A stretch of 33,434 nucleotides of DNA from Candidatus Tayloriibacteriota bacterium (lineage in GTDB: Bacteria > Patescibacteriota > Minisyncoccia > Phycocordibacterales > SIBU01): NCBI GenBank assembly GCA_016188455.1, contig JACPHR010000003.1:1-33434 (forward strand). Direction: 5' to 3'. Under the pieces are notes generated by a model. That model was not told the DNA's origin. It saw only the letters and a program-made list of their open reading frames with translations, and searched no databases. Numbering within the stretch: position 1 is the stretch's first letter; every line of letters begins with the position of its first letter. Positions 808 to 12,258 of this stretch are shown here, piece after piece. The translations under genes were made by a program, and so were the position numbers.

Positions 808-2277
808 ATGAAAAAATTCGGCATAACTTTGTGCTTAGGAATACTCGCGCTTCTTTCCCCTGCTCTCACAAGCGCCGCGGATACGCCCGCAATAGTTTCT
901 TTTAACGTCCCGACCAGTCTTGAATCAGGACAAGTTGCCAGTTTTGCCTGGACCATAAACGGCGGGGGGCATTCGTTTATAATCTTTTGCTCCCAAGGCA
1001 TCAAGCTCAAATATGTTTCCACTAATAAAACTTTTCCGTGCGACGTAAAAACTGCCATAAGCCCCGCCGCCTCTGATGGTATTTCCCTTATTGTCGCCAA
1101 TGTCAGCGGTAACCCGAGAATTTTAACCGTGCGGCTTATTCCAAAAGACGGCAGCGGCGTTGAGTATCTTGCCGGAGCCAGCGAAGTTCCAATATATGTC
1201 AATCCTTCCCGCCAACCGATTACGATTTTTTACACCAACGCGACGACAACCGTTTCCGGCGCGGCGACCACTTTTTATTGGACTACCCTATACCTTGACG
1301 GCGTTAATCTCAGAATCGCTTGCAATGATATGATTACGGCCACCTCATCAACCTACGGCGTCGGCGTCTTGCCCTGCGGCCGAACCATTTTCCCTGCCGA
1401 CCTGCCCGGCTCCGGGTCGGTTACTGTTAAATTTAAAAACGTTTCTCCAACGGAAATTCCTCTTGATGTCACGCTCTTTCCGGCTATGTCGCCCGGCGTC
1501 TACGACGGCACTCGTGCCTTGACCATAAATCTTTTGGTCGCCTCGGACGCCCAAAAGCCGATTGCTCTTTCCTACTTTACGGCTTCCCGCCAAAAAATCT
1601 TTTCCGGCGATTCGGTTTCTTTTTCCTGGTCCTTTCTAAACGGCTCCGGTGTGAATCTGAAACTGTCTTGCGCCCCCTCTGTCACCTACAGTTCTTTCAC
1701 CGCCGCCACAACCACCTCATTGCCTTGCGACACCTACGGGTGGCCAAACCCGTTAAGCCCGACAGGCTCAACTTCCGTTACTTTTTCTAACTCTGGAACA
1801 TCTGGCCAAACCTCCACCATCTCCATTTTTCCGCAACGTAAGGACCTGACCTACGACGGCAGCCAAGTCGCCAGCGTCAAAATCAACGTGGAGCCTGCGG
1901 CAAAAGTCGCCCCGCCGTCAGCCCCGTCCGCCGTGGCGTCGACACCGGCAGTTTCAACTTCAAGTCCTACCGCCGGTTTTCTTGGAGCAGCCACAACAAA
2001 ACCCGCCGGCGCCCCCATTAGTCTTGGCGGTAAAAACATTTTTAAGCGGCCGCTTGACATCGGCTCGCGGGGCGACGACGTAAGGCTCCTTCAAATTTTC
2101 CTGGCTAAGGACAAGAGTGTCTATCCTGAAGGCTACGCCACCGGCTATTTCGGTCCAATCACCGCCCGAGCCGTTGGCCGATTCCAGCTTAAATACGGCC
2201 TGGTCAAATCGTCCCGAGAATCGGGCTACGGATTCGTCGGGCCGAAAACCCGGACGCTCTTAAATTCGCTCCAGTAA
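808..2277 (+). CDS. Secreted protein with repeated beta-sandwich-like segments and C-terminal peptidoglycan-binding domain
   Basis: N-terminal signal peptide; C-terminal DIGSRGDDVRLLQIFLAKD...GYFGPITARAVGRFQLKYGL...GFVGPKTRTLLN. Confidence 0.8.
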   Translation: MKKFGITLCLGILALLSPALTSAADTPAIVSFNVPTSLESGQVASFAWTINGGGHSFIIFCSQGIKLKYVSTNKTFPCDVKTAISPAASDGISLIVANVSGNPRILTVRLIPKDGSGVEYLAGASEVPIYVNPSRQPITIFYTNATTTVSGAATTFYWTTLYLDGVNLRIACNDMITATSSTYGVGVLPCGRTIFPADLPGSGSVTVKFKNVSPTEIPLDVTLFPAMSPGVYDGTRALTINLLVASDAQKPIALSYFTASRQKIFSGDSVSFSWSFLNGSGVNLKLSCAPSVTYSSFTAATTTSLPCDTYGWPNPLSPTGSTSVTFSNSGTSGQTSTISIFPQRKDLTYDGSQVASVKINVEPAAKVAPPSAPSAVASTPAVSTSSPTAGFLGAATTKPAGAPISLGGKNIFKRPLDIGSRGDDVRLLQIFLAKDKSVYPEGYATGYFGPITARAVGRFQLKYGLVKSSRESGYGFVGPKTRTLLNSLQ

Positions 2278-3824: not shown

Positions 3825-5219
3825 TCATTTCTCAAGTTTGATACCCAGTTCCTTTAATTGTTTTAAATTAGGCTCTGACGGAGCGTCCATCATCAAGTCT
3901 CGGCCCTCGCCGGTTTTCGGGAACGCGATGACTTCGCGAATATTCGGTTCTCCCATCAAAATCATCACGACGCGGTCAATGCCGGGAGCGAAGCCGCCGT
4001 GCGGCGGCGCGCCGTACTTAAAAGCTTCCAGCATGTGGCCGAATTTTTTCTGCTGTTCCCCCTCGGAAATTTTCAAAAGTTCAAACACTTTCTTCTGCCT
4101 GTCGGACTGGTGAATCCGAATACTACCAGAACTTAGTTCATGGCCGTTGAGCACTAAATCATATGAATTAGTTTTGATATTGAATAAATCTTCTCCTCGC
4201 ATAAATTTGTCCACGTCCTCTTCTTTGATTGAGCAAAACGGGTGATGCGTCGCCTGTATCTCCCCGTCATCATTTTTCTCAAACATCGGAAAATCAACGA
4301 TCCAAACAAAGCAGAGCTCGTCCTTGTCGTTTTTATCCTTGCGCAAGTCCGGCTTGTCGGAGCCGTATCTTTTCAAGCACTCCGCGTGAGTCAGGCGCGG
4401 AAAAGGCGCCGAAGCGATTTTCTTTTCGGGGAAAAGTTTCCGCACCAGCTCAATAAACATTTGCTCGGTAAACTGTAAAACATCTTCCTGGCTGACGAAG
4501 GACATTTCGTAATCAAGCTGGGTGAATTCCGGCTGGCGGTCGCCACGCAGATCCTCGTCGCGCATACAGCGGGCAATTTGAAAATAGCGCTCAAAACCCG
4601 CCACCATTGAAAGCTGTTTGAATTGCTGGGGCGACTGCGGCAGGGCGTAAAACTTGCCTTTTTCCAGGCGCGAGGGCACGATGTACTCGCGCGAGCCTTC
4701 CGGCGTGCCTTTCATCAAAATCGGCGTTTCAATTTCCACAAAATCGTGCCGGTGCATGTAGTCGCGGAAAAAAGAAATAATTTTGTCGCGCATTTTGATG
4801 TTGCGCTGAAGCCGCGGACGGCGCAGGTCTAGGTAACGGTATTTGAGCCGCGATTCTTCACCTATCTCACGGCCATCGCTCCGAACATCAAAGGGCGGCG
4901 TCAGAGCTTCGTTCAAAACTTCAACGGCAAGAATTTCAAGCTCAATGGCGCCGTTCGGCTCGTCAAGGTTTACCATTTTTTCCGGCCGCTTATTTACCTT
5001 ACCGGTAACGCTCAAAACCCATTCGGGCCGAACGGTATCGGCGAGCGCGTGCGCTTCTTTATGGCTCGGAAGCGCCGCCATCTGCACCTTGCCACTCGCG
5101 TCCCGCAAATCAATGAAAATCAGCTTGCCGTGGTCGCGCCGAACATCCACCCAGCCGGCGATAGTTACTTCTTCGCCCACTTTTTTCAAAAGTTCTTTAA
5201 TATGTGTTCGGTTTGGCAT
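3825..5219 (-). CDS. aspS: Aspartyl-tRNA synthetase, short form
   Basis: OB-fold N-terminus, class II motifs (FRDYMHRHDFVEIETPIL, RDEDLRGDRQPEFTQLDYE, GAPPHGGFAPGIDR); start taken at MPNRTH. Confidence 0.93.
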   Translation of the reverse strand: MPNRTHIKELLKKVGEEVTIAGWVDVRRDHGKLIFIDLRDASGKVQMAALPSHKEAHALADTVRPEWVLSVTGKVNKRPEKMVNLDEPNGAIELEILAVEVLNEALTPPFDVRSDGREIGEESRLKYRYLDLRRPRLQRNIKMRDKIISFFRDYMHRHDFVEIETPILMKGTPEGSREYIVPSRLEKGKFYALPQSPQQFKQLSMVAGFERYFQIARCMRDEDLRGDRQPEFTQLDYEMSFVSQEDVLQFTEQMFIELVRKLFPEKKIASAPFPRLTHAECLKRYGSDKPDLRKDKNDKDELCFVWIVDFPMFEKNDDGEIQATHHPFCSIKEEDVDKFMRGEDLFNIKTNSYDLVLNGHELSSGSIRIHQSDRQKKVFELLKISEGEQQKKFGHMLEAFKYGAPPHGGFAPGIDRVVMILMGEPNIREVIAFPKTGEGRDLMMDAPSEPNLKQLKELGIKLEK

Positions 5220-5220
5220 T

Positions 5221-6189
5221 TTAATATAATCGTACTCCAACTTTTTCCCGCACGATTTTCATCTTTGCTTCAGCTACCGCCTTGGCCTGCTCGCCGCCGG
5301 CTTTGAGGATTTTCAAGACCGCGCCGGGGTTTTTCGCCAATTCTTTTCGCTTCTCCCGCAACGGTCGGATGAAGGTTTTGATGTCGGTAATGAGCGCCTC
5401 CTTCAAGTCCTTATACTTCCCCGCTTTGCTTTGATACAGTGAATCGAGGCCTGCTTCCGGGCGAAACAATTTGTGAATTTCGTAAACATTTTTAGGAATA
5501 CCGGAAGCGGAATCCGTCACAATGCTCATTACCAGTTTTTCAATCTCGGCGTCTTCGGCAAAAAGCGGAATGGTATTGTTGTGGCTTTTGCTCATCTTGC
5601 GCCCGTCAATGCCTGGCACCACGGCGACATTCGGTAAAATTTTTGGTTCAGGCAACTTAAAAGTCTCGCCGAAGACTCGATTGAATTTCTCCGCGGTATC
5701 ACGAGCGTATTCCACGTGCTGTTTCTGGTCGGCTCCCACGGGCACGACATCCGTATCATAAAGCAAAATATCCGCCGCCATGAGCATGGGGTAGTTGAAA
5801 AGCCCGACGCTCACCTCCTTGCCTTTGGCCTCGGCGTCTTTGTAAGCGTGGGCCCGCTCCAAAAACGGCATGGCCGTAATGGTGTCAAAAATCCACGCCA
5901 GCTCGGCGTGTTCGGAAACATCGGACTGCTTGAAGATAACAGATTTCTTAGGGTCAAGTCCGATAGCCAAATAATCGAGCGCCAGCGCCAGGATATTTTC
6001 ACGCATCATTTTCGCTTCCTGAACAGTGTTTAGCGCGTGGTAATCGGCAATCATGAAATAGCAGGAATGTTTTTCCTGAAATTCCACGAACTGCTTCATC
6101 GCCCCGAAATAGTTGCCGATATGCGGCCTGCCCGAAGGTTGAACGCCCGAAAGCAAGATCTTCTTGGCTGTTTTCATCATACGCTCCAT
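5221..6189 (-). CDS. trpS: Tryptophanyl-tRNA synthetase
   Basis: LSGVQPSGRPHIGNYFGAM, GADQKQHVEYARD, GIDGRKMSKSHNN. Confidence 0.95.
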   Translation of the reverse strand: MERMMKTAKKILLSGVQPSGRPHIGNYFGAMKQFVEFQEKHSCYFMIADYHALNTVQEAKMMRENILALALDYLAIGLDPKKSVIFKQSDVSEHAELAWIFDTITAMPFLERAHAYKDAEAKGKEVSVGLFNYPMLMAADILLYDTDVVPVGADQKQHVEYARDTAEKFNRVFGETFKLPEPKILPNVAVVPGIDGRKMSKSHNNTIPLFAEDAEIEKLVMSIVTDSASGIPKNVYEIHKLFRPEAGLDSLYQSKAGKYKDLKEALITDIKTFIRPLREKRKELAKNPGAVLKILKAGGEQAKAVAEAKMKIVREKVGVRLY

Positions 6190-6701: not shown

Positions 6702-6830
6702 AGTGCTCTCGGCCGGAGATTCGACCGCTACTCGGTCAGTACCCCGATTGCTTTTTCTGCTCGTGCAGACACTCCAGAAAAAGCTCGATCAGGCTTCGAC
6801 TCCGGCAAGTTCCAACACCCGTTGGAACTC
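6702..6830 (+). ncRNA. Putative structured element E1 (tRNA 3'-end echo, antisense, plus hairpin)
   Basis: P1 GCCGGAG(6712-6718)/CTCCGGC(6800-6806), P2 GACCG/CGGTC, P3 GCTTTTTCTG/CAGAAAAAGC, then hairpin AGTTCCAAC/GTTGGAACT. Confidence 0.4.
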
Positions 6831-10182: not shown

Positions 10183-10267
10183 GGGCGTAAATCCCTATCG
10201 GACGTCCGGTCGGCTGAATGCCTGAAAGTGGGATCTTTTTGCCTTTTTTGTCCTTTGTTTTTTCCAT
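10172..10267 (-). pseudogene. Vestigial trpS 5' end (31 codons)
   Basis: Reads MEKTKDKKGKKIPLSGIQPTGRPIGIYAHEH*; aligns with trpS N-terminus KKILLSGVQPSGRPHIGNY. Confidence 0.75.
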
Positions 10268-10362
10268 GTCCACAATAATATCAGATTTTTAAGATGTCTC
10301 CAATTCTAATTCTCGGGCAAATCAAATACTTAATTCACTGTCCAAATTATTTATATTTACAC

Positions 10363-10390
10363 ACAGGTACATTCGCGCGAATGTACCTGT
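10363..10390. promoter_or_regulatory. Palindrome copy 3, upstream of the membrane protein/ATPase operon
   Basis: Perfect 28-bp palindrome ACAGGTACATTCGCGCGAATGTACCTGT. Confidence 0.6.
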
Positions 10391-10545
10391 ATAACTTCTC
10401 TTTTTGTTCACTTTCAGCTATTATTCCAACGCACACCAACGCTCTCGTCGTTTCATGGACCCCCAGTAGGAGAGCCGAGCTCCTTACGGGACGAGAAGTG
10501 CCAAATAGGATTCCGTGGGTATTGTTATTTTCAAAGTATATAATA

Positions 10546-10566
10546 GCTCTCGTCGTTCAATGGATA
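10546..10566 (+). tRNA. 5' fragment (21 nt) of split/interrupted tRNA-Arg(CCG)
   Basis: GCTCTCG-TC-GTTC-AATGGATA; acceptor complementary to CGAGAGC at 10869-10875. Confidence 0.6.
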
Positions 10567-10585
10567 CCTGCCCGACTTGCCTGAC

Positions 10586-10657
10586 GCTTCTGTAGTTCAA
10601 TGGATAGAATATCTCCCTCCGAAGGAGGTGATGCAGGTTCGATTCCTGCCAGAAGCA
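10586..10657 (+). tRNA. tRNA-Arg (anticodon CCG), complete
   Basis: Acceptor GCTTCTG/CAGAAGC, D-stem GTTC/GAAT, anticodon loop CTCCGAA on stem TCTCC/GGAGG, T-arm GCAGG-TTCGATT-CCTGC. Confidence 0.92.
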
Positions 10658-10686
10658 CAAACGAACACAGTAAGTTTTGGCCTGAG

Positions 10687-10804
10687 AAAACTCCGGGGGA
10701 GTTTTCGTGCGGGAATCGAAACCCGATTGAGCTGAGTCCAGTGCGACGGACGAACCAATCGGGGTACTGTCCATGTAATGGAAGATTTCCTGCCAGAAGC
10801 ACAA
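10687..10804 (-). ncRNA. Putative structured element E2 (downstream of tRNA-Arg, 3'-end echo)
   Basis: Echo gatttcctgccagaagcacaa (10784-10804) of tRNA end 10641-10660; anti-T-arm gggaatcgaa; stem CCCGATTG/CAATCGGG; hairpin AAAACTCC/GGAGTTTT. Confidence 0.45.
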
Positions 10805-10825
10805 TATGCAAGTCAGGCGGGCGGG

Positions 10826-10876
10826 GGATATTCCCCTCCGAAGGGAAAAATGCCGGTTCGACTCCGGCCGAGAGCA
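10826..10876 (+). tRNA. 3' fragment (51 nt) of split/interrupted tRNA-Arg(CCG)
   Basis: GGATA-TTCCC-CTCCGAA-GGGAA-AAAT-GCCGG-TTCGACT-CCGGC-CGAGAGC-A. Confidence 0.65.
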
Positions 10877-10923
10877 CATGTGAAAGAATTTGAGTATTCG
10901 AATTTTTTCACATATGCTCGAGA

Positions 10924-11006
10924 GCTCCGATGGGCATCGGAGCGTGCCGGAGTCGAAGCCTCGTTGTACTGACCGAGTAGCGGTCGAATCTCCGGCCGGG
11001 AGCACA
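10924..11006 (-). ncRNA. Putative structured element E3 (downstream of split tRNA-Arg, 3'-end echo)
   Basis: Echo tcgaatctccggccgggagcaca (10984-11006); P1 GCCGGAG/CTCCGGC; hairpin GCTCCGAT/ATCGGAGC; shares about 38 bp with E1 in inverted orientation. Confidence 0.45.
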
Positions 11007-11053
11007 GCCGAGCGTAGCGAGGCGAACCAAAACTCTTTGACTTTTCCTATCTG

Positions 11054-11116
11054 GTGCAGTATTCTTGAGTTAGTCCGAACGCATTTTGCCGAAAAAATCC
11101 CCCCGCAAAAATTCGG
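11054..11116 (+). repeat. Inverted repeat A, left arm
   Basis: 63 nt, 60/63 complementary to 12262-12324. Confidence 0.9.
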
Positions 11117-11262
11117 AAAGGCGGCACCTGCCCGCCAAAGCCTCGGTGCGGGCGGGGAGCCACACCGCTTAAAACCGCCAGAGAACCCGGAGAAAAACAT
11201 CGGCTCGAACCATGTTTTAATTTGGGGGAAGAAATTTTTTATTAATCTTAACAACAACTTTT

Positions 11263-12258
11263 ATGGTCATATTTTGGATAATTGTATTTATTGTTTCGTT
11301 GGGGGTGTTGGTAAAAGGCGCTGATTGGTTAATTGCGAGCGCGGAAAAAATAGGACTTGCTCTCGGTTTATCGCCTTTTATCGTCGGCGTTACCATTGTT
11401 GGCGTTGGAACATCTTTCCCGGAACTTATCTCCTCTTTTGTGGCGATGTTCAAGGGCGTGCCAGATGTTGTTGCCGCAAACGTCATAGGTTCAAATATCG
11501 CAAACATTTTACTTATTGTTGGTATTTGTGCTGTCATTGGTAAACGACTCATAGTTACAAAAAGTTTAATAGATTTAGATCTTCCGCTACTCGCTATCAG
11601 TACGGTTTTGCTTTTGGGCATCGTGTGGGATAAACAAATTACTTTGGGTGAATCTCTCTTAATGCTTGTTACTTATGGCGTATATTTGCTTTATACGGTC
11701 TTACACAAAGATACGGAAGATTCGGGTGAAATTGCTGAATTTTTACCATCACGGCAAGAAAGAAGAAAACATATACTCGCCCACAAGAAAGAAGAATTTA
11801 CTCGCCCAAAACTCGTTGTAAAAGATTTTATCCTTTTGGTTATTGGTATTCTAGGTTTAGTTTTCGGCGCGAAATATCTCATTGATGCGTTAGTGAATCT
11901 ATCCACAATGTTAAACATCGCGACTGGAGTAATTGCCATTACTGCCGTCGCGGTCGGTACTTCCTTGCCCGAACTTCTGGTTTCCGCAAAGGCAGCTCTC
12001 CAGAAAAAATCAGAGATCGCGCTTGGAAATATTTTCGGCTCAAATGTTTTCAATGCTTTAGTTGTTATAGGTTTGCCTGGATTGTTCCGCGTTCTTCCGG
12101 TAGATAATCAAACCTTTACAATTGGTGTTCCAACAATGGCTCTAGCAACATTGCTCTTTGTTATCTCTGGCATTTCGAGAAGAATTCATATGTGGGAAGG
12201 GGCGTTTTATCTTTCGGTTTATTTTCTTTTTGTCGCAAAACTTTTTAACTGGTTTTAA
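11263..12258 (+). CDS. Calcium/sodium antiporter (CaCA family)
   Basis: Two alpha repeats: GVTIVGVGTSFPELISSFVA...NVIGSNIANILLIVG and AVAVGTSLPELLVSAKA...NIFGSNVFNALVVIG. Confidence 0.93.
   Translation: MVIFWIIVFIVSLGVLVKGADWLIASAEKIGLALGLSPFIVGVTIVGVGTSFPELISSFVAMFKGVPDVVAANVIGSNIANILLIVGICAVIGKRLIVTKSLIDLDLPLLAISTVLLLGIVWDKQITLGESLLMLVTYGVYLLYTVLHKDTEDSGEIAEFLPSRQERRKHILAHKKEEFTRPKLVVKDFILLVIGILGLVFGAKYLIDALVNLSTMLNIATGVIAITAVAVGTSLPELLVSAKAALQKKSEIALGNIFGSNVFNALVVIGLPGLFRVLPVDNQTFTIGVPTMALATLLFVISGISRRIHMWEGAFYLSVYFLFVAKLFNWF

Follow-up and report, generated by a model that had tools for sequence, protein, structure and literature searches.

Intact tRNA genes nested within split tRNA genes of the same anticodon in a Tayloriibacteriota bacterium and its relatives

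What is an intact tRNA-Arg(CCG) gene doing between the two halves of another tRNA-Arg(CCG) gene, and which of the two would serve the cell? We addressed this question in a 33,434-nucleotide stretch of DNA (hereafter the window), which is contig C29 of a Candidatus Tayloriibacteriota genome (G000; 893 kb, 98% complete) with 45 ARAGORN-detectable tRNAs, whose relatives include Candidatus Taylorbacteria and other Parcubacteria.

The nested locus and the question of splicing

As proposed in a preliminary description of the locus, positions 10546–10566 and 10826–10876 join to a perfect 72-nt tRNA-Arg(CCG), which ARAGORN calls as tRNA-Arg(ccg) and in which all stem pairs are present (acceptor 7/7, D 4/4, anticodon 5/5, T 5/5). 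The 5′ half of this outer, or host, gene (10546–10566) breaks off at the 3′ end of the D-loop, and the 3′ half that completes it (10826–10876) scores 24 bits alone. The 259-nt insert between them (10567–10825) begins with a 19-nt 5′ arm, CCTGCCCGACTTGCCTGAC (10567–10585), which stops exactly at the start of the nested tRNA-Arg(CCG), an intact gene of 69.6 bits at 10586–10657, and it closes with a 3′ arm, GCAAGTCAGGCGGGCGGG (10808–10825); all of these features lie on the forward strand. The ends of the insert are indeed complementary, with CCTGCCCG-ACTTGC at 10567–10580 forming an inverted repeat with GCAAGT-CAGG-CGGGCGGG at 10808–10825. No credible ORF or integrase gene was found in the 259 nt. 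On the question of whether the genome has another CGG-decoding tRNA, the nested copy turned out to be its sole intact tRNA with a CCG anticodon. With an intact same-anticodon tRNA inside the insert, and with expression of that tRNA predicted, the element would restore the function of the gene that it interrupts. Directly after the outer tRNA, positions 10872–10919 hold a 22-nt near-perfect inverted repeat that resembles a terminator.

The preliminary description had offered three readings of this anatomy: an intron-like insertion, a fragmented tRNA, or a tRNA that the insertion inactivated and whose role passed to the inserted copy. As developed here, the first would make the insert a new kind of intron: its arms join the halves, the whole insert is cut out together with the nested tRNA, and both tRNAs work. 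The precursor RNA folds with the outer acceptor and the arms paired (z −4.95), a structure compatible with splicing. Several outer copies at comparable loci also have perfect stems, and the inserts occupy loops, which tolerate introns; joining usually restores a 7-nt anticodon loop. Against this, the RtcB-type ligase (PF01139) is absent in 10/10 genomes searched (control positive in 9 of 14) and the tRNA splicing endonuclease tRNA_int_endo (PF01974) in 9/9 (control positive in 4 archaea), which led us to reject archaeal-type splicing, while an Rfam search of 10200–11300 up to an E-value of 5 returned no intron family and no group I core, and a group I or II intron was likewise rejected. Arms, boundaries and insertion sites differ widely between loci, and outer copies decay, some to the point of lacking their anticodon or 3′ half, around nested copies that remain intact; in one genome of the same genus (G001) the outer tRNA is scrambled. 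For these reasons neither the intron-like nor the fragmented-tRNA option found support, splicing of the outer tRNA appears unlikely from sequence, and an intron of a new kind is an explanation that we regard as doubtful. We consider it slightly less probable still that the outer tRNA is also made, with the nested tRNA excised and the arm helix keeping the halves in place for rejoining by a novel bacterial route that uses no ribozyme, EndA or RtcB. If it were made, one locus would yield two isoacceptors in a Russian-doll arrangement.

Uninterrupted orthologs and horizontal movement

The third option, inactivation by insertion with replacement by the inserted copy, fits best, given uninterrupted genes in congeners, intact nested copies and decaying outer ones. 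The outer gene, recognizable by its start GCTCTCG, is uninterrupted in two genomes of the same genus: in G002 (contig C5) it is 95.8% identical to the joined outer tRNA and its upstream flank matches too, and in G003 (contig C48) it is 94.4% identical. Both orthologs are only 78–81% identical to the nested copy of the window. Since the gene is uninterrupted in these congeners, the insertion in the window is derived. In the third congener, G001, this gene is also disrupted, but in another way: it holds a hairpin insert together with a nested tRNA-Arg(CCG) of its own.

A near-identical element was found in another family. Genome G287 carries exactly the same 5′ arm and a nested tRNA identical to that of the window at 71 of 72 positions, inside a different tRNA-Arg(CCG); the outer tRNAs of the two loci share just 78% identity. 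Across these genomes, the other tRNA pairs of equal anticodon that were compared are mostly ∼0.6–0.9 alike. Because a near-identical element occupies a different tRNA-Arg gene in another family, we conclude at the sequence level that the element of the window has moved horizontally. The other exception among the tRNA pairs is tRNA-Leu(CAG), which is 0.99 alike across the two families and could reflect a recent transfer.

The 5′ arm is identical in split tRNA-Arg genes of G051, G287, G395, G077 and G397, and the 3′ arm is the same or nearly so at loci L039, L052, L053, L057 and L064. Nested tRNA-Arg(CCU) genes are flanked by these arms as well: those of G051, G395 and G077 occupy the same D-loop site, and that of G397 lies at anticodon-loop site 37/38. 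Several further matches to the 5′-arm pattern (L047, L048, L054, L056) were discarded as coding sequence or unrelated.

Recurrence of nested tRNAs and the state of each copy

Simple matching of halves around an intact tRNA gives ∼2–3% false positives with shuffled flanks, and a stricter scan was therefore used. Across the whole 893-kb genome, this split-tRNA scan finds only three intact tRNAs enclosed by a complete outer one: Arg(CCG) in the window, Thr(UGU) on C21 and Pro(UGG) on C22. At each, outer and enclosed tRNA have one and the same anticodon. A scan of both strands, in which the contents of the insert were not asked for, returned 12 split outer tRNAs outside intact tRNAs, 11 of which hold an intact tRNA of the same anticodon and strand; the least certain of the 11 is a Val case (L209), whose 5′ half sits in a degenerate tRNA-like stretch. 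Reversed-sequence controls of these scans gave 0, so the arrangement is not due to chance. The twelfth, a tRNA-Thr in G018 (L142; contig C3, ∼1604–1878, minus strand), has its anticodon loop split by a ∼200-nt insert that contains no tRNA; this insert looked group-I-like by eye and is perhaps a group I intron, for which Rfam gave no support.

With flanks read by eye added, the total comes to ∼30 cases in about a dozen genomes, ∼25 of them in relatives. They cover 14 anticodons: Arg (CCG, CCU, UCU, UCG), Thr(UGU), Pro (UGG, CGG, GGG), Gly(CCC), Cys(GCA), Ile(UAU), Glu(UUC), Ser(CGA) and Lys(UUU), with Val(GAC) a probable addition. Outer and nested copies share anticodon and strand, except at L009, where the outer anticodon has since mutated. 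Insertions lie in the D-loop, in the anticodon loop (35/36, 36/37 or 37/38) and, in one case (L247), in the T-loop. Nesting can go deeper: G287 holds a tRNA-Pro(GGG) triple nest closed on both sides like a Russian doll (L206, contig C63), and G077 a tRNA-Arg(UCU) double nest ended by the contig end. Target-site duplications of fixed form were considered and set aside, being suggestive in a few cases (CAAG, TTTA) and not general. The genome of the window has two further partial cases. One is a 5′ half ahead of tRNA-Arg(UCU) (L040); the other, on contig C19 at 5128–5257, is a Pro(GGG)-like tRNA with the unusual T-loop AGCATTA, which ARAGORN misses and which has short arms on its flanks and the 3′ half of a tRNA downstream.

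Literature searches for a tRNA nested in a tRNA returned nothing relevant. In its default mode ARAGORN shows the nested copy only, and such nests have therefore likely been missed before. We regard the arrangement as real, recurrent and, apparently, undescribed. These genomes are metagenome assemblies or drafts, in which short palindromes can mislead assemblers, and an assembly or binning artefact joining unrelated tRNA loci might be suspected. However, the same arms, sites and same-anticodon rule recur within contigs of independent assemblies from different families, and the reversed-sequence controls were empty; an artefact is thus largely refuted and, in our judgement, hardly credible.

The two copies differ in their state of preservation. 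All 17 nested copies assessed are recognized by ARAGORN with the right anticodon and have 4 of 357 stem pairs broken, a count biased by the fact that nested copies were found because they are intact; of the outer copies, 12 of 18 are recognized and ∼35 of 378 stem pairs are broken. The outer-first scan of both strands found no intact outer tRNA around a degenerate one. At L050, L055, L040 and L166 nothing of the outer 3′ half is left, and the anticodon is gone from the Pro outers of G287. A takeover by the nested tRNA, which these sequences suggest, should leave just this picture of an intact nested copy within a decaying outer one. Two observations count against replacement. All three complete outer tRNAs of the genome of the window have perfect stems, as do G287 Thr and Ile, G397 Arg-TCG and G077 Arg, and the G000 insertions would therefore be recent or the outers keep some role. 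The nested Pro-CGG of G287 is identical to its outer halves, so that local duplication could also give rise to such copies.

These loci could alternatively have arisen with no dedicated element, if palindrome-flanked foreign tRNA genes enter resident tRNA genes by homologous or microhomology recombination and only same-anticodon events survive. Palindromes are dispersed in these genomes, including an intergenic one in G224 that matches the 5′ arm at 18 of 19 positions (L049, L059), and L009 has a hairpin without cargo at the same D-loop site, with arms resembling those around the nested tRNA-Thr of G287. Outer tRNA and arms can also travel together, the outer 3′ halves of G395 and G077 being 1 nt apart. 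The insertions are nevertheless strictly restricted to loops, identical arms recur at identical sites in several families, and genes for GIY-YIG proteins inside or beside tRNA genes suggest a directed process; recombination of this kind seems to us improbable, if a little less so than an intron.

A candidate driver and its relation to known systems

The explanation that we favour as probable is a mobile, ORF-less insert that breaks a tRNA gene and carries a same-anticodon replacement, with spread by GIY-YIG homing. As far as sequence comparison can show, the insert entered a gene that sister species keep whole, ∼30 cases follow the same-anticodon rule, and nested copies are under constraint that is weaker on outer ones. 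In this replacement scheme, the 259-bp module would break a tRNA gene by entering one of its loops, and the complete same-anticodon tRNA inside the module would replace the broken essential gene on the spot. The nested tRNA would be transcribed from the upstream region of the host gene and freed by RNase P and 3′ processing, as in ordinary end maturation, and the outer tRNA, no longer needed, would decay. Spread would come from a small GIY-YIG endonuclease that makes its cut in the conserved loops of tRNA genes, with repair copying the element in.

The genome of the window encodes five GIY-YIG ORFs (Pfam PF01541), three of which have a same-strand tRNA gene 0, 10 and 16 nt away, respectively (P = 8.9e-6 under random placement); the other two are not beside a tRNA. 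Two of the three flank tRNA-Ser(GCU) (L113; C8 12818–13467), where the Ser-side ORF ends within the tRNA gene, and the third precedes and abuts tRNA-Asn(GUU) (C26 28013–28400). Each of these two loci holds a 5′ fragment of its own tRNA with a hairpin insert, and the same GIY-YIG arrangement occurs with tRNA-Thr in G012 (L138). In G397, the inserts in a split tRNA-Ser(CGA) and a probable split tRNA-Val(GAC) themselves contain, upstream of the nested tRNA, genes for small GIY-YIG proteins (PF01541 E-values 7.5e-12 and 5.8e-16). The insert of the window has no detectable GIY-YIG remnant and would therefore be a non-autonomous or decayed form of such endonuclease-bearing elements. GIY-YIG homing endonucleases are the most likely drivers of module spread, a link that is by association and unproven. 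A Y1/RAYT transposase as the sole mover was rejected, Y1_Tnp being missing in three of the 10 genomes tested (G001, G002 and G395).

Elements with tyrosine integrases use tRNA genes as attachment sites, located in loops, and restore the tRNA 3′ end. The modules described here resemble them in inserting at loop-located sites of a tRNA gene and in the predicted restoration of tRNA function. Unlike those elements, which carry an integrase and restore part of the same gene, they have no integrase, bring a whole and usually divergent tRNA within ∼100–500 bp, and leave the host gene split on both sides. Rickettsia palindromic elements and REP/RAYT sequences are short ORF-less palindromes inserted in genes and probably moved in trans, but they have no tRNA cargo and no same-anticodon rule. 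Archaeal tRNA introns are spliced by EndA and a ligase, machinery that was not found here, and to our knowledge none contains an isoacceptor tRNA. In Caldiarchaeum, a tRNA-Thr is disrupted by a mobile element (PMC3293823), and with this case and archaeal intron-containing or split tRNAs our loci share an interrupted tRNA, an implied role of mobile DNA and tRNA fragments nearby.

The rRNA genes of CPR bacteria tolerate insertions, and GIY-YIG proteins occur there only in insertions other than group I or II introns (PMC11270868). In both settings essential RNA genes are interrupted, and the GIY-YIG proteins of those rRNA insertions recall the GIY-YIG genes in and beside tRNA genes here; the rRNA insertions differ in that they affect rRNA, mostly involve LAGLIDADG proteins and group I introns and have no rescue copy, and the main text of that study makes no mention of tRNA (PMC11270868). 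SegB of phages T4 and T6 is a free-standing GIY-YIG homing endonuclease encoded among tRNA genes that cuts within tRNA genes at a reported motif RAWTSGAAC, and break repair then drives the inheritance or amplification of tRNA genes (PMC2988022, PMC13096335). This motif resembles the T-arm, and GIY-YIG genes adjoin tRNA genes here too. SegB differs in acting in a phage as opposed to a cellular chromosome, and no insertion with a same-anticodon copy inside has been described for it; most modules here have no ORF, and their tie to an endonuclease is one of association. We class the arrangement as a variant of target-rescuing insertions in tRNA genes, with GIY-YIG homing as its most likely, although unproven, driver. 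It would amount to a recurrent overwriting of essential single-copy tRNA genes in reduced genomes, in which destruction and replacement come in one step, a natural cut-and-rescue logic at ∼100–500 bp. This could explain horizontal exchange of tRNA genes in Patescibacteria, their abundant tRNA fragments and the small GIY-YIG genes beside tRNA genes.

The surroundings of the nest hold further tRNA fragments, all on the forward strand except where stated. Upstream, the region 10441–10514 is a further 5′ fragment, now degenerate, of the same tRNA, in which GCTCTCGTCGTTTCATGGA (10441–10459) is interrupted by a hairpin insert, CCCCCAGTAG..CTCCTTACGGG with a GACGAGAAGTG tail (10460–10505), and followed by TAGGATTCC. 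G001 has a similar hairpin in this tRNA, and at L059 one occurs as an intergenic repeat. Within the insert, between the nested tRNA and the 3′ arm, a secondary mini-insertion in the T-arm/3′ end of the nested tRNA (10661–10786) contains a reverse-complement T-arm at ∼10704–10720 and then ACCCGATTGAGC..CCAATCGGGGTACTG, and is bracketed by an 18-nt duplication of the nested tRNA 3′ end, TTCCTGCCAGAAGCACAA (10643–10660 and 10787–10804). Downstream, 10943–11006 is a relic that combines a reverse-complement T-arm with another copy of the outer tRNA 3′ end (CTCCGGCCGGGAGCACA), of which 10966–11005 has a 98% copy at 6703–6742 on the minus strand. The sites 10661–10786, 10943–11006 and 6703–6742 (minus) point to a second kind of mini-element at tRNA T-arms, built of a reverse-complement T-arm, GCCYGATYGAGC..CCRATCGGGGTACTG and a tRNA 3′-end copy, and related stretches lie near tRNAs in G002 (contig C24), G025 (twice), G034 and G035.
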